NCBI GenBank assembly: GCA_030710605.1
Contig: CP092869.1
Span: forward strand, 10,405,263-10,469,262
Direction of reading: 5' to 3'
Source of the DNA: Cordylochernes scorpioides
Lineage: Eukaryota > Arthropoda > Arachnida > Pseudoscorpiones > Chernetidae
DNA length: 64,000 nucleotides
Made by a program: the position numbers and the translations under genes. Each line of letters opens with the position of its first letter. The first letter of the stretch is position 1. Under the pieces are notes generated by a model. The model ran no database searches, was not told the DNA's origin, and saw nothing but the letters and a program-made list of their open reading frames with translations. Positions 1,852-60,814 of this stretch are shown here, piece by piece.

Positions 1852-2255
1852 CTACAAACCTAACTGCAATGATAAAATTTGTTGAACGAGAGGGCTTGGC
1901 TCATCAGTGGTGAACCCTCAACCTCTCGTTCAAAAACCTGGCTGAACGCCAACCTTTATCGAGGCATTACATTTTTGTATACACAAACTCAGCGCCGCAT
2001 AGCGTTATAATATCACAGTTGAAATAATTTAAAATACAGAGTAGGTGGGGGAAATTTGTGCATGAAAAAAATATTAACCACTTCCTTTGTATTTCAAATG
2101 ATATCAAATGTGATATTATAACACTATGCGGCACTAAGTTTGTGTATACAAAAATGTAATGCCTCGATAAAGGTTAGCGTTCAGCCAGCCGAAATATTGG
2201 AAAAATAAATATTTTATTGAATTCAATATATGCCTTTTTATTATCTAATATATAT
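1852..2255. repeat. Fold-back family A with an E2-type fragment
   Basis: Inverted arms pair 1939-2020 with 2110-2200: the words GAACGCCAACC and ATGCGGC..TAT recur inverted. The 1860-1938 part matches the E2 repeat family (TTGGCTCATCAG). The right arm at 2160-2202 holds the hammerhead-like unit of family A (TCGATAA core, GAAA retained). The right end is ATATATGCCTTTTTATT. Confidence 0.7.
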
Positions 2256-5030: not shown

Positions 5031-5031
5031 A

Positions 5032-5217
5032 AAAGGCATATATTGGATTGAATAAAAGATTTATTTGCCAATATTTCGGCTGGCTGAACGCCAACCTTTA
5101 TCGAGTAATTACATTTTTATATGAATGTAATGCCTCGATAAAGTTTGGCGTTCATACAGCCGAAATATTGGCAAATAAATCTTTTATTCAATCCAATATA
5201 TGCCTTTTTACTATCTA
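5032..5217. repeat. Fold-back family A, copy with short loop
   Basis: Left arm AAGGCATATATTGGATTG.. mirrors right arm ..AATCCAATATATGCCTTTT. The plus-strand right arm contains a hammerhead-like unit at 5131-5173: TGCC, TCGATAA, helix II partly broken, GAAA, TATT, GGCA. TGCC/GGCA is a perfect stem I. Confidence 0.8.
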
Positions 5218-5248: not shown

Positions 5249-5526
5249 AAAAATAAGGCCTATTTTGGATTTTAATACGATTATTTATTAATCCGATATT
5301 TCGATGGATCAATCTTCCATCTTTTACGAGGTGTTTTGCCGTGAAGCATGCAGCAGGTCGCGTGCCCCAGGTGAGCCACTAGACGTCTTCCAAGCCCATT
5401 GGGCGACAAACCATCTAACACATACATTCCAAACAGAAACATCGTAAAAGATGGAAGATTGATCCATCGAAATATCGTATTAATAAATAATCGTATTAAA
5501 ATCCAAAATAAGCCTTATTTTTAAAA
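5249..5526. repeat. Fold-back repeat family I
   Basis: Inverted arms 5249-5325 and 5441-5526 are reverse complements (ATTTTGGATTTTAATACGAT / ATCGTATTAAAATCCAAAAT). They enclose a unique centre with GCATGCAGCAGG. The inner arm GATGGAAGATTGATCCATCGAAAT looks like a decayed hammerhead helix II plus GAAA, but the CTGA core is gone. Confidence 0.7.
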
Positions 5527-7740: not shown

Positions 7741-7915
7741 TTGAAAATAGAGAAATCCATATTTAATTCATTAGATAATAAAAAGGCATATACCTTTATC
7801 AAGGCATTACTTTCTTGAAAAATGTAATGCCTTGATAAAGGTTTGGCGTTCAGCCAACCGAAATATTGTCAGATAAATATTTTATTAAATCCAATATATG
7901 CCTTTTATTATCTAA
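7741..7915. repeat. Fold-back family A copy
   Basis: Begins with the family end GAAAATAGAGAAATCCATA and AAAAAGGCATATA, and ends AATATATGCCTTTTATTA. The hammerhead-like unit at 7828-7871 (+) keeps GAAA, and helix II (GGTTTGGC/GCCAACC) has one bulge. Stem I TGCC/GTCA has one mismatch. Confidence 0.75.
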
Positions 7916-11700: not shown

Positions 11701-11902
11701 TCAATAGCGAGCCGAGGCCTGAGTCAAACAAAGCCAATTGAGTTCTGGAGATAAACAATTTTCCGAGAAGGGAAGGAAAGAAAGTAAGGCAATCACAGCA
11801 GCGCAATCTTATTATTTTCTATCCTGTCTATCTCTCCATTTAATTGTTCAAAATAACAACAAACTTTACTATATAGACAGTTAATACGCATAGAGATATA
11901 TT
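11701..11902. other. Unassigned DNA
   Basis: Short gap between the tandem array and the next fold-back. Nothing seen. Confidence 0.4.
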
Positions 11903-12127
11903 TTCGAAAATAGACAATCCATAAATAAATCTTCAATTAAAAAGGCATATATTGGATCAAAATATCATTTATTTTACCAATATTTCAGTTGGCTGAACGC
12001 CAACCTTTATCAAGGTATTATAATTAAATATGTTATAACACCTTGATAAAGGTTGGCGTTCAGCCAACTGAAATATTGGTAAAATAAATGATATTTTGAT
12101 CCAATATATGCCTTTTTAATTAAAAAT
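11903..12127. repeat. Fold-back family A, well-preserved copy
   Basis: Arms 11938-12012 and 12042-12124 are near-perfect inverted copies, and the left end carries GAAAATAGACAATCCATA. The plus-strand unit at 12040-12080 has ACC, TTGATAA, A, GGTTGGC, GTTCA, GCCAACT, GAAA, TATT, GGT. This is helix I, core, helix II and the catalytic GAAA of a hammerhead layout. Confidence 0.85.
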
Positions 12128-12185
12128 TATTGAGTTATATATAAATATCCAGTCTTAGTGTACGCTTTAAAACAGATTTATATCT

Positions 12186-16336: not shown

Positions 16337-16520
16337 TTCTTGAAAATAAAGATACTTCGGCCAGTAAATCGTTTTATTACCTCGACGTTTCGACAAACGT
16401 TTTTTAACGCCTTGCCAAATGTTTTAATTTTTTTTGCTCCTGACGAGGACAAAAGCTTTTTGTCGAAACGTCGAGGTAATAAAAAGATTTACTGACTGAA
16501 GTATCTTTATTTTCAATAAA
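16337..16520. repeat. Fold-back family F
   Basis: AAAGATACTTCGGCCAGTAA and TTACTGACTGAAGTATCTTT are inverted ends. The inner arms CTCGACGTTTCGACAAA / TTTGTCGAAACGTCGAG enclose the loop. A hammerhead-like unit occupies the right arm (16437-16476). The downstream word ATGAATGCCGGCCAGGCAGC recurs elsewhere. Confidence 0.75.
16437..16476 (+). ncRNA. Hammerhead-like motif, family F
   Basis: CTC, CTGACGA, G, a 7-bp helix II (GACAAAA/TTTTTGTC with GC-T loop), GAAA, CGTC, GAG. The catalytic core is complete and the site after GTC is permitted. Stem I pairs only 3 bp, and there is one extra G between core and helix II. AATAAAAAG follows. Confidence 0.5.
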
Positions 16521-20672: not shown

Positions 20673-20940
20673 ATATATTATAACATAGAGTGTCGGGAGG
20701 ATAGATTTCATGTACCTACATTACCATGTACCTATGAGAGCAATAGCCCGATAACATGGTATACAAGTTCACTTAATTGTTTGAATTTACCAAAACCCTT
20801 ATTGTCGCTTGTCTTCATTCATATGAATAAGTGCATTTTGTGAGAAGTCAATGGACAAAAAGCATTGTCTTAATGTAATTTTAAACGCAAAAGGTGTCTT
20901 TTTCTAACACATCTTTCTATCACAAAATGACAATATATTA
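20673..20940. other. Unassigned DNA
   Basis: Nothing recognised. Confidence 0.4.
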
Positions 20941-20954
20941 ATATATATATATTA

Positions 20955-21042
20955 TTTGAAAAGGCATATATTGGATCAAAATATCAATTATTTATGGATT
21001 GCTCTATTTAGGTAAAATAAATGATATTTTGATCCAATATAA
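20955..21042. repeat. Truncated family A fold-back
   Basis: AAAAGGCATATATTGGATC then GGTAAAATAAATGATATTTTG. The central hammerhead part is deleted, and the right arm is joined directly to E1 sequence at about 21042. Confidence 0.7.
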
Positions 21043-21190
21043 GGGCGAAACCGCTGGGAGGGTTCACCACTAATGAGCCAGGCCCTCCCTTTAATTTTTC
21101 CATTGCAGTAAGGACAGTAGAAATTGTTTTATTTTAAAAAGAATATTACGCCTCTAAAATAGTTTTGTAATTTGATAACAGATGGCGCGC
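21043..21190 (+). repeat. Family E1 partial copy
   Basis: Starts abruptly in the permuted hammerhead-like block (GGGCGAAACCGC..CTAATGAGCCAG, 21043-21082) and runs to CAGATGGCGCGCTAGTGC. It shares most bases with 21413-21545. Confidence 0.7.
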
Positions 21191-21289
21191 TAGTGCATCG
21201 TAACATAATTGTTCAAATAAAAGACACAATTTGATATTTGCGGAAGAGCGATTGCTCGAAGCATATTATATATTTATAATTATATTTAA

Positions 21290-21580
21290 TTCTGCTGTCC
21301 TAAAAGCTTATGTCCATAGTTTTTCTAAAATACCCATTCCAAGAGTCTTAAAACAGTCAACTATAAAAGGAAGTTCCAAAAATGCAATATAACAGCGGTA
21401 TGGTAGATTAAACTGGCGAAACCGCTGTGAGGGTTCACCACTGATGAGCCAGGCCCTCCCTTTAATTTTTCCATTGCAGTAAGGACAGTAGAAATTGTTT
21501 TATTTTAAAAAGAATATTACGCCTCTAAAATAGTTTTGTAATTTAATTAAAGATTTATTTATGGATTGCTCTATTTTCAA
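21290..21580 (+). repeat. Family E1 second copy plus family A terminus
   Basis: The 40-nt block 21413-21452 is perfect: CTGGC, GAAA, CCGCTGTGAGGGTTCACCA, CTGATGA, GCCAG. It ends in ATGGATTGCTCTATTTTC, the family A outer end. Confidence 0.75.
21413..21452 (+). ncRNA. Permuted hammerhead-like 40-nt block (reference copy)
   Basis: GAAA precedes CTGATGA, so helix II (CTGGC/GCCAG, 5 bp) is the open outer helix. ACC can pair GGT as stem III, with GTT as the would-be cleavage triplet. Only five bases (CACCA) separate it from CTGATGA, so stem I is absent. The block is exactly 40 nt in seven other E1/E2 copies, and helix II covaries between E1 and E2. Whether it cleaves is unknown. Confidence 0.5.
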
Positions 21581-21599
21581 AAATATTAATATATGTGGT

Positions 21600-21796
21600 G
21601 ATCTGTTAATCAGTTGTTTGTGGTGTGGCAAGTGGTAAGGAATTACACAGGTAGCGGGATCCGAGAGTGAAAATCGTGAGGAATAGATCAGAGAGGAAAG
21701 AGAAGGTTCACCCTGGGAACAACCGGTGTGGAGACCATCTCGGTGAGAAATGTCTCCCATCAAATCCAGGTTTTTTAAAAACTCTTTTGATTAGAA
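21600..21796. repeat. Repeat H, partial copy at gap edge
   Basis: GTGGTGTGGCAAGTGG, GGAATTACACAGGTAGCGG and GAACAACCGG resemble repeat H. It runs into the assembly gap. Confidence 0.35.
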
Positions 21797-23529: not shown

Positions 23530-23585
23530 AGGTATCGGGAGGCAAGCTTTCGCGTGGTCGCGCTTCATCAGGCCACTGGCTCCGC
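23530..23585 (-). ncRNA. Hammerhead-like motif, AGCT stem III type
   Basis: Minus strand: GTGGC, CTGATGA, A, GCG..CGC helix II, GAAA, GCTT, GCCTC. The core is complete. Stem I GTGGC/GCCTC has one mismatch, and stem III AGCT is self-complementary with no loop, so only a dimer could fold. TTAATAAAGA lies downstream. Confidence 0.45.
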
Positions 23586-37276: not shown

Positions 37277-37289
37277 AATACAGGTTACA

Positions 37290-37490
37290 GCCTTCTCCAC
37301 GCTGACGAGCGCCAACAGCGCGAAACGCGTTCGTGGATGGCTTTTCTTGATTTATTAAGATATTGGGTTGGTCAAATATCACGGAGAAAGCTAAATATAC
37401 GTTTAGTTCATTTTTTCTCCACTAGATGGCGCTCTGCCATCTAAAATGAACATGTGCTGGTGGTCAGGAGATGCCTTTTTTATTTTTAGA
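37290..37490 (+). repeat. Family B half-element with intact hammerhead
   Basis: Order: hammerhead (37296-37337), TTGATTTATTAAGA, a spacer, TTTAGTTCATTTTTTC, CACTAGATGGCGCTCTGCC, CACATGTGC-like, TGGTCAGGAGATGCC. This is the same order as the minus-strand half of 5587-5979, so it defines the monomer unit of family B. Confidence 0.85.
37296..37337 (+). ncRNA. Canonical type I hammerhead ribozyme, family B
   Basis: TCCACG (stem I), CTGACGA (37302-37308), GCGC-CAACA-GCGC helix II (37309-37321, perfect), GAAA (37322-37325), CGCGTT, CGTGGA (stem I). Stem I is six Watson-Crick pairs. Stem III is ACGCGT (37325-37330), self-complementary: 2 bp plus a 2-nt loop as a monomer, or 6 bp as a dimer. Cleavage is predicted after GTT at 37331. 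Every core position matches the consensus. This minimal stem III form is known from Penelope-like elements and animal retrozymes. Confidence 0.88.
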
Positions 37491-39465: not shown

Positions 39466-39740
39466 ATGAAAAATAAATCTCCTTATCGTGAAACTGAGAT
39501 TTTCTGATGGCTTGCCCTATCTATCGGAATAAATTTCAACTATTCTCGTTGATTTTAAATTATTCCAGAATTGGCCAAATACCCATTCTTGATTAATCAA
39601 GAAAAGCTAACCACGGACGCGTTTCGAGCTGTTGGCCCTCATCAACGTGGTGCAAGCTGTACCTCAACGATAAAAAAAACAGGACATTCAGGCATCCTGT
39701 AAAATCATCAAACGGGTAGTTAAGGTCTGAATTGCGTGAG
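39466..39740. repeat. Family D-type repeat with a decayed hammerhead
   Basis: AATCTCCTTATCGTGAAACTG and ATCTATCGGAATAAATTTCA match family D. The minus strand 39611-39650 carries the hammerhead block of family B type, so B and D share a module. Confidence 0.65.
39611..39650 (-). ncRNA. Type I hammerhead with C3 to T change
   Basis: Minus strand: CCACG, TTGATGA, GGGC-CAACA-GCTC, GAAA, CGCGTC, CGTGG. Stem I is five perfect pairs and helix II has one G-T wobble. GAAA and the GTC site are intact. Only core position 3 differs (T for C), creating a possible U3-G8 wobble. Confidence 0.65.
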
Positions 39741-40884: not shown

Positions 40885-41295
40885 GAAAATAGAGCAATCC
40901 ATAAATGATACTCAATTTGTTACAAACCACGGAAATTTCAAAAGTTTTTTAAATAGAATAAAGGCAGTGGAGGATTCAAGTTGCTTTTGTGGTATGGAGT
41001 AACAAACCTCAAGACATCTACTGATCGATTGCCCAACATTTCAAGATTATAGAATGAAGAATGAACTAGTTGTTTATGAATTAAACGATTTGATTTCCGA
41101 TAAAAAATCATATCTAAAGTTCAATTCATTTTGTAAATACATTCTAAAATTTCTACAAAATCTGGATCTCTAATGTTTTTATTCGTTGAATAATGTAAAT
41201 AACTTATGTAAATAAACTTTTCTCCTTGTTTGGCGCAAGTATCCCTTGCGGGATATAGCGCTTTGGAAATAAAATAATTGTAATTGTAATTGTAA
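40885..41295 (+). pseudogene. Non-LTR retrotransposon 3' end, copy with (TAATTG)n tail
   Basis: 40885-40910 is a family A end (GAAAATAGAGCAATCCATAA). Then GAGGATTCAAGTTGCTTTTG and a CCTCAAGACATCTACTGATC stretch encode RHLLIDCPTFQDY-like residues in a broken frame. Tail hairpin TATCCC-TTGC-GGGATA (41240-41255), then TAGCGCTTTGG, and a GTAATTGTAATT simple tail (41276-41300) as expected for a TPRT element. Confidence 0.7.
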
Positions 41296-41520
41296 TTATA
41301 AATAAATATTTAATTAAAAAGACATATATTGGATCAAAATATCATTTATTTTACTAATATTTCAGTTGGCTGAACGCCAACCTTATCAAGGTGTTATAAC
41401 AGGTTGACACACTTTAAAATGTTATAACACCTTGATAAAGGTTGGCGTTCAGCCAACTGAAATATTGGTAAAATAAATGATATTTTGATCCAATATATGT
41501 CTTTTTAATTAAAAAGTAAA
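41296..41520. repeat. Fold-back family A, near-perfect
   Basis: Arms 41313-41395 and 41425-41515. Hammerhead-like unit at 41429-41469 (+): ACC, TTGATAA, A, GGTTGGC, GTTCA, GCCAACT, GAAA, TATT, GGT. The left arm has a 1-bp deletion (CCAACCTTATCAAGG). Confidence 0.85.
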
Positions 41521-41564
41521 TAATAATGTATATATAAAAATATTATTTATTATTAATTTGTTAA

Positions 41565-43450: not shown

Positions 43451-43454
43451 TATT

Positions 43455-43690
43455 ATAAAAATTGGAAACTATTATAGACGCGTATGATTCTTTTGAATAT
43501 TAACAGAATTCTACTGCCTTTTCCGCAATGGAAAAATTAATGGAAGGGCCTGGCTTATCAGTGGTGAACCCTCCAATTAATTTTTACATTGCAGTAAAGG
43601 CAGTTGAAATTGTTTAATTTTTAAAATAATTATACGCGTCTATAATAGTTTCGAATTTTGATAACAGATTAGAACGCTATTGCATCAAAA
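43455..43690. repeat. Fold-back family E1, deleted copy
   Basis: GAAACTATTATAGACGCGTA / ACGCGTCTATAATAGTTTC arms. The 40-nt block is partly deleted (GGCTTATCAGTGGTGAACCC retained). Confidence 0.75.
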
Positions 43691-48570: not shown

Positions 48571-49450
48571 TATATAAAATATTTGATATTTTGTCTAATT
48601 TCTCAATATATGTCTATATTCCTTCTATATATTATGTAAATATAAATAGAAAGTAATGAAGAGAGAGTAAGAAAAACATAATAAGTAGATGAAGGGTGTT
48701 ATATTATTGTTTTTGAGGTGAATATAATCTGAATGTATCAATTAAATATTTGACAGAAATGTTTAACAACAGAACCAAGCTTAGAAATCGGCTTCTACAG
48801 ATCATACACTTGGCGAAGAAACTGAGGTAACGAACCAGATATTATTCAATAGAAAAAAAAGGTAATCTTAAAATTTAAAAATGTTATTTTTCCTTATTAT
48901 AATTTTAAAAATGTTATCAAAGATATTTTATGAATTTTAATATTTTAACGTTTTTTAATTGAGTATATATTTGAGTTAAAAAGCTATCCATCATTTAAGA
49001 TTATATAAAAGGGCGTACCTGTTTCTGTGAAGAAATAAAATCTCAAAATATTTTGAGAGATTGCTCCCTCTTTATCAATTTATTGTAAACACCAATATAC
49101 ACCAATAGCTCTCTTTGCGTCATTTCGTTTTGCGTTTTTTTCGAAGTTGCGTCGCTGCTTAATTTTTACTGATTTTCACTGTGCGTCGTTAGAATTTCGA
49201 AGTTGCGTTGTTTTGGATTCGAATCTTTAATTTTTTTTTTATTTTTTTTCTCTAAAATATGGCAAAACCTTTGTTTTTGATTGCGCCTTCACATATTTTC
49301 ACTTTGCGTCGTTTAAATTTGCGTCGTGTTTTTTGGAACCTAACCTCAACGCAAAGCGACGTATGGGTGTAATGTGTATGTATAGTTTTTTTTTTGGAAA
49401 ATATAAATACACTGTAAAAATAATTAAAGCCACTATATAAACAGAAATAT
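48571..49450. other. AT-rich DNA with GCGTCGTT-rich stretch
   Basis: 49100-49370 contains scattered TTGCGTCG / CTGTGCGTCG words, possibly an old repeat with an inverted end AACGCAAAGCGACG. No gene. Confidence 0.4.
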
Positions 49451-50835: not shown

Positions 50836-50945
50836 AATACTTTGATAAAGGTTGGCGTTAAGCCAACTGAAATATTGGTAAGATAAATTATATTTTGATC
50901 CAATATATATACCCAATATATATATATATATATTTGATCCAATAT
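50836..50945 (+). repeat. Family A half-element
   Basis: Single arm only. Unit 50838-50880: TACT, TTGATAA, A, GGTTGGC, GTTAA, GCCAACT, GAAA, TATT, GGTA. Followed by ATATTTTGATCCAATATAT and (TA)n. Confidence 0.75.
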
Positions 50946-53494: not shown

Positions 53495-53625
53495 AAAAGA
53501 CATATATTGGATTAAAATATAATTTATTTTACCAATATTTCAGTTGACTGAACGCCAACCTTTATCAAGGGGTTATAACATATTAACATTGATATATTAA
53601 TATGTTATAACACCTTGATTTGCAG
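53495..53625. repeat. Family A fold-back, right arm truncated
   Basis: AAAGACATATATTGGATTAA and TTGACTGAACGCCAACC (left arm), short TATGTTATAACACCTTGATT remnant of the right arm, then an unrelated junction. Confidence 0.7.
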
Positions 53626-53829: not shown

Positions 53830-54150
53830 TTCTCTCGTTTCTTTTCTCTCTTTCTCATTGTTAACATCCTATGACTATCCTATTCACGGCCTAAAAGTAT
53901 TGTATATATATATGTGTATTGAAAATAGAGCAATCCATAAATAAATATTTAATTAAAAAGGCATATATTGGATCAAATTATCATTTATTTTACCAATATT
54001 TCATTTGGCTGAACGCCAACCTTTATCAAGATGTTATAACATATTTAATGTGTGTCTATTTTTTTTCTATATGTATAGACAAATGTAAAGACATACATGT
54101 ATGACAGCGCAAGTGTCCCTAGGGGGACATAGCACTTTAAATTGAAATTT
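53830..54150 (+). pseudogene. Non-LTR 3' tail interrupted by a family A arm
   Basis: CTCATTGTTAACATCCTATG and ATTCACGGCCTAAAAGTATT match 34165-34250. A family A arm (about 53915-54065) is inserted, after which GACAAATGTAAAGACATACA and the hairpin TGTCCC/GGGACA (54114-54129) resume. Confidence 0.75.
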
Positions 54151-54597: not shown

Positions 54598-54740
54598 TCG
54601 ACCGCCAGATGTCGCGGCTTTCCCCATATAAACTCACTGGCGGACCTTGTGCATGAATCACCGAAGTTAAGCAATGCCGGGCCCGGTCAGTATTCGGGAG
54701 GGTGACCACCTGGGAACACCGGGTGCTGTAGGCTATTACC
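54598..54740 (+). pseudogene. 5S rRNA-derived sequence
   Basis: ATCACCGAAGTTAAGCAATG, CCGGGCCCGGTCAGTATTCG, GGGTGACCACCTGGGAAC and GGGTGCTGTAGGCT are the 3' ~80 nt of 5S rRNA, including the A-box/IE/C-box internal promoter region, followed by a T-run. The first ~40 nt of 5S are replaced by GCGGACCTTGTGCATG. A 5S pseudogene or the head of a 5S-derived SINE. Flanked by the sequence shared with 3808-3900. Confidence 0.8.
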
Positions 54741-58717: not shown

Positions 58718-58962
58718 GCCATCTATCGTTGAAATTTGTAACATATAAATTTACAGGCAATGTTTTTCTTTCAAATAATATTATCAAATATTATCTCTAC
58801 AGACCTTACTGCAATGAATATTGAATCAATGAGGGGCTTGGCTCATCAGTAGTGAACCCTCTCAGCGGTTTCGCCAATACAATAGTAAAGCGGTCTAGAG
58901 ATTAATTTGGCGAAACCGCTGAGAGGGTTCACTACTGATAAGCCAAGCCTTCTCATTCATTC
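58718..58962. repeat. Fold-back of family E2
   Basis: Two E2 copies face each other around AATACAATAGTAAAGC. Permuted hammerhead-like blocks lie at 58838-58877 (-) and 58907-58946 (+), both with TTGGC/GCCAA. The left flank has TTGCCATCTATCG. Confidence 0.8.
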
Positions 58963-59370
58963 AATAATCATTGCAGTAAGGTCTGTAGAGATAATATTTG
59001 ATGATATTATTGAAAATAAACACATTGCCACTCATTCAATAACTTATATCATTGCAGTAAGGTCTGTAGAGATAATATTTGATGATATTATTGAAAATAA
59101 ACACATTGCCACTCATTCAATAACTTATATCATTGCAGTAAGGTCTGTAGAGATAATATTTGATGATATTATTGAAAATAAACACATTGCCACTCATTCA
59201 ATAACCTATATCATTGCAATAAGGTCTGTAGAGATAATATTTTATGATATTATTGAAAAGAAACACATTGCCACTCATTCAATAACCTATATCATTGCAG
59301 TAAGGTCTGTAGAGATAATATTTGATGATATTATTGAAAAGAAACACATTCCCAGTAAATTTATATGTTA
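58963..59370 (+). repeat. 81-bp tandem array (five units) of E2 sequence
   Basis: Units contain ATCATTGCAGTAAGGTCTGT, AGAGATAATATTTGATGATA and AACACATTGCCACTCATTC. 81 is a multiple of 3, so one frame (58907-59398) stays open with a 27-residue repeat. This is a by-product of the period rather than evidence for a protein. Confidence 0.9.
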
Positions 59371-59990: not shown

Positions 59991-60094
59991 CACAATATTT
60001 GCACATTAAATTTGAAAAAAAAAACCAACCTTTCTACGCATATTCTAGTATAACAACTTTTGTTTGTTCAAGTTATAAATTTAAATATATAAAT

Positions 60095-60330
60095 CTATAA
60101 TTAAAAAGGCATATATTAATTCAAAAAATCATTTATTATGCCAATATTTCAGTTGGCTGAACGCCAACCTTTATCAAAGGTATGCCATATAAATGTCGGA
60201 CTTTAATATGTTATAATATCTTGATAAAGGTTGGCGTTCAGCCAACTGAAATATTGATAAAATAAATGATATTTTGATCCAATATATGCATTTTTAATTA
60301 AAGATTTATATATGGATTGCTCTATTTTCA
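60095..60330. repeat. Fold-back family A with both ends
   Basis: Left arm 60100-60180, right arm 60210-60302, outer end ATGGATTGCTCTATTTTC at about 60312. Hammerhead-like unit 60217-60259 (+): TATC, TTGATAA, A, GGTTGGC, GTTCA, GCCAACT, GAAA, TATT, GATA. Stem I is fully paired. Confidence 0.85.
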
Positions 60331-60814
60331 AAAGAAATATACATCTATATAAAATATTTTTCTTTATACCGAAGGCCTCTATCTTTAAAAAAAAAAGCGT
60401 TATGTGACATCAAATTTTAAAATCTATATATCAGAGGTATCTTACTAAAATGATCCCAATTTTTTCAATTTCATTAGAGAGAATTTTTTTTTACTGTGTA
60501 TAAAGTTAGGTCAAAAATAAACATTTTATATCAATTTTAATGAAAATTTATAATCTCCCTCCTTTCTTTATATAAAATGGTAATAATTCTAAGAGTATGT
60601 ATATAAAAGAGAATTCATACAAGGGTAGTTTCCCTGCAAGTACATAATTGGGAAAATTCCAAGGATAAAGATATTTCTATTAATATGAAATCCTATTGTA
60701 TAAGTACAACGGTGTCATGCGGCGTTGTGAGATCAATATTGCGGAAGGAATTGTTCGGTGTTGCACAACTCCATTTTAATAGAGTCACGTGATGACGTAT
60801 GTGTAAATAAGTTG
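60331..60814. other. AT-rich DNA
   Basis: 60700-60800 is GC-richer (GGCGTTGTGAGATC) but carries no recognisable feature. Confidence 0.4.

Follow-up and report, generated by a model that had tools for sequence, protein, structure and literature searches.

Does the motif at 12040..12080 of this stretch of DNA, which has TTGATAA where hammerhead ribozymes have CTGATGA, represent a hammerhead with a changed core pair, and what kind of element carries it? The stretch analysed here (the window) comprises 64,000 nucleotides of contig CP092869.1 of the pseudoscorpion Cordylochernes scorpioides and belongs to a 2.62-Gb genome of 24 contigs. Most comparisons refer to a 268-kb sample (268,332 bases) consisting of the window and loci L001-L028, which were chosen around the motif, here called family A.

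The family A motif in the window

The layout of family A is stem I, core, one extra A, helix II, GAAA, UAU, U17 and stem I. The motif and its relatives (families B, C and E) occupy the following places in the window; the scores are from R2, a model built on ten members of the clade.

12037..12083, plus strand: family A motif; matches the relaxed descriptor; R2 71.5 bits, an identical sequence being an R2 training row
12040-12042/12078-12080, plus strand: stem I of this motif
12043-12049, plus strand: its core U3 to A9; the extra A is 12050
12051-12069, plus strand: its helix II including the loop; G12-A15.1 is 12070-12073
12076 and 12077, plus strand: its U16.1 and U17; predicted cut 12077/12078
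11973..12019, minus strand: second copy of the motif, in the opposite arm of this element, TACC/GGTA; R2 74.5 bits; matches the relaxed descriptor
11928..12128, both strands: family A palindromic element, one self-complementary unit; arms 93.5% identical, motifs facing outward
about 11900-11928, minus strand: tail of this element, outside its left end
41295..41527, both strands: family A palindromic element; motifs 41350-41395 (minus) and 41426-41472 (plus)
60085..60332, both strands: family A palindromic element, 3' tail at right; motifs 60137-60183 (minus) and 60215-60261 (plus, TATC/GATA)
50836..50882, plus strand: single family A arm, TACT/GGTA with a U-G wobble
53528..53574, minus strand: family A motif copy, R2 match
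53989..54035, minus strand: family A motif copy, CATC/GGTA, R2 match
5031..5208, both strands: family B palindrome; motifs 5064-5110 (minus) and 5129-5175 (plus)
5129-5175, plus strand: family B motif, TCGATAA, TGCC/GGCA, helix II broken
2158..2204, plus strand: family B motif, TCGATAA, R2 match
7826..7873, plus strand: family B-like motif, TTGATAA, TGCC/GTCA, stem I mismatched
5289..5335, minus strand: family C motif, TCGTAAA, helix II GATGG/CCATC, GAAATATC; R2 training row
5438..5483, plus strand: family C motif in the partner arm of 5289..5335; R2 38.0 bits
49041..49084, minus strand: family E motif, TTGATAA, helix II with GCAA loop, GAAA changed to AAAA; R2 E 0.035

A sequence check placed motifs at all five sites reported in the initial annotation. 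As pieces of 55-56 nt, four of them fold as proposed there, with helix II GGTTGGC/GCCAACT (basal pair G-U) and a stem I of 3-4 bp; the fifth, 5131-5173, has TCGATAA and a disrupted helix II, and adopts a different fold. The covariation of stem I claimed for these sites is two-sided at two of the five (TGCC/GGCA and TATC/GATA), whereas TACT/GGTA is a one-sided U-G wobble and ACC/GGT (12040, 41429) is the majority state of the family, found in 44 of 71 copies. The motif also departs from the hammerhead at more than positions 3 and 8, to which the differences had been confined: an extra A lies between A9 and helix II, and the monomer (GAAA-UAU-U-GGU) lacks helix III. The initial annotation covers neither the missing helix nor the extra base, and it mentions neither the palindromic mobile element nor the link to PLEs described below.

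Composition of the core and covariation of the stems

An arm profile yielded 92 arms with 73 readable motifs, 71 of which were kept; these copies were picked by pattern, with at most two changes in the core and at most one in GAAATAT, and further-decayed copies were missed. The core pair is U3-A8 in 70 of the 71 copies, A3-A8 in one and C3-G8 in none. Family A thus lacks the C3-G8 of the general hammerhead core, but the other conserved positions agree in at least 65 of 71 copies. Helix II does not follow A9 directly, the extra A being present in 70 copies and absent from one. UAU is found in all 71 and H17 is U in 69 and C in 2, so that A15.1, U16.1 and a residue other than G at H17 are all in place; A15.1 and U16.1 are partners in the dimer only. 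A self-complementary AUAU takes the place of helix III in every copy.

Five families make up the U3-A8 clade, and their helix II comes in four kinds: GGTTGGC paired with GCCAACT or GCCAGCC in families A and B, GATGG/CCATC in family C, GAGAGGC/GCCCCTC with one mismatch in family D, and GAGGGA/TCTCTC with a GCAA loop in family E. Family E was found by R2, in L021, L036 and L013 and at 49041-49084 of the window (E 2.8e-4 to 0.043). This family is palindromic in L036 and L013, has a tail starting ATGGATCGCC in L036 and L021, and shows by eye only two pairs in stem I.

Over 41 rows, 87.2% of the cells pair and 6 of 11 pairs vary on both sides, in 15 cells that are not separate events (8 of them reflect the change from A-U to G-C seen in the family B type, which probably arose once); none of 500 shuffles reached this. 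Ten family-level rows gave a similar result, with 90.0% of cells pairing, 6 of 11 pairs two-sided in 10 cells, and again 0 of 500 shuffles. The best stem I pair occurs in three types (A-U, G-C and U-A). Helices I and II therefore both covary, stem I weakly in family E, and on this larger sample the claim that the stems are kept by covariation stands. A hammerhead-type fold is supported, as is the interpretation of U3-A8 as a compensated swap.

Abundance

The 39-mer CCTTGATAAAGG...ATATTGG occurs with up to 3 mismatches in at least 51,440 places genome-wide (25,788 + 25,652), and its exact TTGATAA form in at least 11,017 (5,485 + 5,532), these counts being lower bounds by the search tool's own statement. 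The same pattern read backwards, a control, gave 0 places genome-wide with up to 3 mismatches. The exact 39-mer with CTGATGA likewise occurs in 0 places in the genome, which argues against the possibility, raised in the initial annotation, that TTGATAA copies of this subfamily are simply decayed from a CTGATGA parent. The relaxed descriptor matched 70 times in 268 kb, compared with 5, 9, 7, 5 and 15 times in five order-2 Markov controls. The family A motif is real and above chance. The sample as a whole is unusually rich in foldback elements, with L001-L028 picked around family A: 106 self-complementary matches longer than 70 bp were found, of which 33 overlap arms of families A or B and 73 lie outside them.

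Anatomy of the element and mode of insertion

Family A is a short and very abundant element with the motif near the outer end of each mirror-image arm. The sample contains 28 paired elements, whose centres range from nothing to 146 bp, and 25 more arms that are single. Neighbouring arms of the A clade less than 400 bp apart are arranged minus/plus in 31 cases, plus/minus in 2, plus/plus in 2 and minus/minus in 1. Copies with both ends carry the tail ATTTATTTATGGATTGCTCTATTTTCAAAA beyond one outer end, with the other end near TTTTTAATTAAA; the family A tail begins ATGGATTGCTCT... The two flanks share a string of at least 7 bases in 22 of 31 elements compared with 217 of 888 mismatched pairs (mean 8.7 vs 5.8). 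The 31 include some copies of a single larger repeat, and in one case the shared string is an AT run. Examples of such duplications are ACATTTCTTTAT at L011 and ACATTATTGACT at L019.

Long inverted arms, small size and many copies are also what one would expect of a MITE, in which case the arms would be the terminal inverted repeats of a DNA transposon and their likeness to a hammerhead a matter of chance. We consider this very improbable. Variable duplications and a one-sided tail are unlike a cut-and-paste transposon and like the Penelope of Adineta vaga, the centre is variable as well, and the same anatomy recurs in two elements of this genome that encode RT and GIY-YIG. Head-to-head arms, a one-sided tail and a variable target duplication together correspond to PLE-type insertion, and because its anatomy matches that of those two palindromic PLEs, family A is constructed like a PLE minus its gene.

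Palindromic PLEs of the same genome

A GIY-YIG search of the genome gave at least 146 matches (150 of 17,015 candidates were scored), several of them minus/plus neighbours. The palindromic PLE L041 has two 2,402-bp arms that are 100% identical, each with an outward ORF, and the arms of L042 are about 2,455 bp long and 98.9% identical; one ORF in each element contains Pfam RVT_1 and GIY-YIG. Both insertions are apparently recent, with the two arms as from one RNA source. Every outer end is matched by R1, a model built on 16 canonical minimal hammerheads (53.1 and 53.1 bits in L041, 40.8 and 29.5 bits in L042), and the core is CTGACGA in three of the four, the left one of L042 being TTGACGA. A tail of about 35 nt starting ATGAATGCCGG is present at the right end only in both elements. 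By eye, L041 is flanked by a 9 to 12 bp duplication, (GAT)TCAGGTAAT, which is uncertain because the target itself is a tandem repeat.

A PLE combining family A ends with an ORF was not found among 12 GIY-YIG loci and 2 PLE regions (of the at least 146 matches). The family A tail was present in L029 and L039 only among the GIY-YIG loci, in L039 as part of a family A palindrome and in L029 in what looks by eye like a separate insertion. R1 matched four of the 12 loci (L030, L032, L033, L039), in some cases in neighbouring elements, and the other eight had no match at E up to 1.

An ATG occurs in the tail of L041/L042 as well as in those of families A and E, and each tail can be read as the start of a short peptide: MNAGQAASIFT in L041/L042, and MDCSIFK and MDRLLTQ, read by hand, in families A and E. 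They look as if they were the start of a PLE ORF, an arrangement described for other PLEs in PMC3846280.

We propose that the PLE reverse transcriptase copies the element by priming at both cut target strands. The two cDNAs, their 3' ends outward, would join at their truncated 5' ends and so give rise to head-to-head arms. Two-strand priming of this kind would explain the variable centres, the outward motifs and the one-sided tail. An enzyme from Anolis extends both target strands, according to PMC11167929, while the Adineta authors favour self-priming on an antisense template (PMC3846280). The data presented here do not decide between the two.

Canonical hammerheads in the same sequences

A descriptor of the canonical core (C[TC]G[AT]NGA) matched 27 places in 268 kb, compared with 2, 2, 0, 3 and 0 in five Markov controls. 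Seven of these are full type I motifs, all without the extra base, 15 are minimal and 5 are odd or doubtful. In the minimal forms a single extra base follows A9, and A15.1 is separated from U16.1 by two bases; 13 of the 15 contain the self-complementary ACGU or AGCU. Altogether, the extra base after A9 is present in 18 of the 27. Two comparators lie in the window.

16432..16480, plus strand: canonical minimal hammerhead in a palindrome, in order CTC, CTGACGA, g, GACAAAA..TTTTGTC, GAAA, CGTC, GAG
23536..23579, minus strand: canonical-core minimal motif, in order CTGATGA, a, helix II, GAAA, GCTT; inverted arm not found

At E < 0.01, R1 matched 46 places in 268,332 bases, a total that includes the 16 rows on which it was trained; 27 are in inverted arms (one of them with doubtful arms, 4 kb apart) and all 27 face outward, and the other 19 have no arm. 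Over the same 268,332 bases none of the R1 matches at E up to 10 is a family A copy, and at the family A sites the Rfam hammerhead families gave no match at the gathering cut-off or at E up to 10. With its filters off and applied to 81 bases, R1 gave as its best match the family A motif (12037..12083), in the right register, at 7.4 bits; family D scored 10.7 bits.

Several other structured sequences were noted. The full type I cores are at 37302 (plus) and 20249 (minus) of the window, L009 2984, L010 213 and 4231, L019 6672 and L022 1388; these motifs have a 6-bp stem I and self-complementary stretches in helix III (CGCG in four, CCATGG in two, CATG in one), and one of them is matched by Rfam HH9 at window 37286-37351 with 28 bits (cut-off 52). 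A type I-like motif at 39645 (minus) of the window, TTGATGA (U3-G8) with GGGCCAACAGCTC and CGCGTC, is probably a decayed copy of this full type I family. Another palindromic family, CTGGC-GAAA-...-CTGATGA-GCCAG or near forms, resembles permuted hammerhead halves with helix II open; by eye it lacks U16.1 and shows neither helix III nor helix I clearly (L027 8591-8871, L014 87-374, window 20900-21600, 43453-43664 and 58756-59029). A 5S rRNA match is located at 54611-54734 (plus) of the window (41.3 bits, Rfam cut-off 38).

Taken together, the anatomy, the copy number, the outward orientation and a layout in common with the canonical minimal hammerheads on co-resident PLEs, along with the covariation of the stems between families and the lack of a C3-G8 family A motif both among the copies read and as an exact match in the genome, lead us to the following interpretation, to which we assign a probability of about 0.72. 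Family A is a non-autonomous palindromic retroelement with two head-to-head arms of PLE pLTR type, and the motif represents that lineage's minimal pLTR hammerhead with U3-A8 as its core pair.

Alternatively, the stems could have another role, as a structured site for the PLE RT or as an RNA/DNA priming hairpin, and the likeness to a hammerhead could be convergent. The motif site as single-stranded DNA keeps the helix II hairpin only, and an element that is palindromic anyway would be compatible with such a role. On the other hand, the registers, the extra base, the A-XY-U arrangement and H17 of family A all match the canonical-core motifs found in the same kind of element, and both face outward. 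An alternative hairpin, ACCTT-GATA-AAGGT, has within CCTT-GATA-AAGG one two-sided pair, a result reached by 125 of 500 shuffles and weaker than that of the hammerhead stems. We find a convergent likeness improbable.

Folding and cleavage

If family A is a pLTR hammerhead, the motif would, at least in the source copies of the lineage, have cut pLTR RNA after U17 (or C17). Two motifs in tandem or on RNAs that meet would pair through AUAU, a helix III common to both, and each would cut, perhaps with help from the PLE protein.

Computed folds, whose energies ignore tertiary contacts and protein, are less favourable. The AUAU-joined dimer hammerhead, at -21.8 kcal/mol, falls short of the stability of a pair of monomer hairpins (2 x -14.3), and in the 12040 site folded as 96 nt helix II persists while a downstream hairpin displaces stem I. 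Each of five full-length palindromic transcripts folds as a single hairpin (-134 to -213 kcal/mol) in which the motif is buried. A helix III formed by ATATTGG...CCAATAT also folds (96 nt); it leaves no partner for stem I and was dropped by eye. Cleavage of present-day family A RNA, putative as judged from sequence, appears rather unlikely.

It is possible, at somewhat less than even odds, that the motif is a dead relic, descended from a PLE hammerhead and no longer cutting owing to U3-A8, the missing helix III and its buried position, and that it has been kept by hitch-hiking in, or folding for, the copying by the PLE enzyme. The long hairpins formed by whole transcripts and the lack of family A copies among the matches of the canonical model R1 are consistent with this, and inner stem I is broken in 19 of 71 copies, as expected of neutral decay. 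According to PMC11167929, the hammerhead of an Anolis PLE (PAc HHR) cut only with protein, and hammerhead mutants left insertion in vitro unaffected. The evidence against a relic is that G5, A6, A9, GAAA, U16.1 and H17 are present in nearly every copy, across families in which helix II has been replaced and still pairs, since a motif without a role would not need such conservation of the core; this applies to copies chosen by core pattern (at most two and at most one changes), so that further-decayed ones are missed.

Relation to known systems

The U3-A8 swap and the minimal form were each known before, and it is the lineage with the swap fixed that looks new. The suggestion in the initial annotation of an undescribed natural variant does not hold, as Perreault et al. 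2011 (PMC3088659) already report that C3-G8 covaries to U3-A8 in several natural hammerheads and state that U3-A8 ribozymes had been proven active in vitro. Their likeness to family A is this natural change of C3-G8 to U3-A8; the difference is that they describe "several examples", whereas family A has it as a fixed state in a lineage without helix III and with more than 10^4 exact copies.

PLE hammerheads lacking helix III are on record in PMC6155905 and PMC7761336, and action as dimers through the palindrome is attributed to Lunse 2017 by PMC6466107. As described by citing papers, the PLE minimal type I hammerheads (Cervera and de la Pena 2014; Lunse, Weinberg and Breaker 2017) resemble families A-E in having only a self-complementary stretch for helix III and no loop-loop contacts, in their location in PLE pLTRs and in being thought to act as dimers. 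Families A-E differ from them in having U3-A8 in place of C3-G8, and may also differ in the extra base after A9, which 18 of the 27 canonical-core matches in this genome have as well. A literature search gave no account of a U3-A8-fixed lineage or of the extra base, a weak result as the two main papers on PLE hammerheads were outside its coverage.

With respect to the element, the closest likeness is to the Adineta vaga Penelope pairs, for which PMC3846280 describes head-to-head palindromes and pLTRs in inverted orientation, one of which carries a 31-bp tail, with duplications of 8-10 bp; family A has the head-to-head arms, the tail at one end and the duplications in common with them but is non-autonomous and far higher in copy number. 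The word hammerhead is absent from the main text of PMC3846280. Metazoan retrozymes, as outlined in PMC7229834, are likewise small non-autonomous elements with type I hammerheads, but they are tandem repeats with canonical hammerheads whereas family A is inverted and minimal. PLEs/Terminons are named as likely mobilisers of retrozymes in PMC7761336.

These results lead us to speculate, tentatively and as an unlikely outcome overall, that a long-lived lineage of PLE pLTR ribozymes has adopted U3-A8 for good, acting as AUAU dimers or with a PLE protein, and has reached tens of thousands of copies, diversifying into five or more families with four helix II types between them. G8 is a catalytic residue of the hammerhead, and A8 fixed without helix III or loop contacts would therefore be either a surprising working minimum or a ribozyme dying in a widespread element. 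The canonical minimal hammerheads on palindromic PLEs of the same genome provide built-in controls, and a palindromic PLE with identical 2.4-kb arms bears on how PLEs insert. If the notion of a long-lived lineage is true, the natural mutations of the U3-A8 lineage would form a record of a hammerhead whose core pair has changed.
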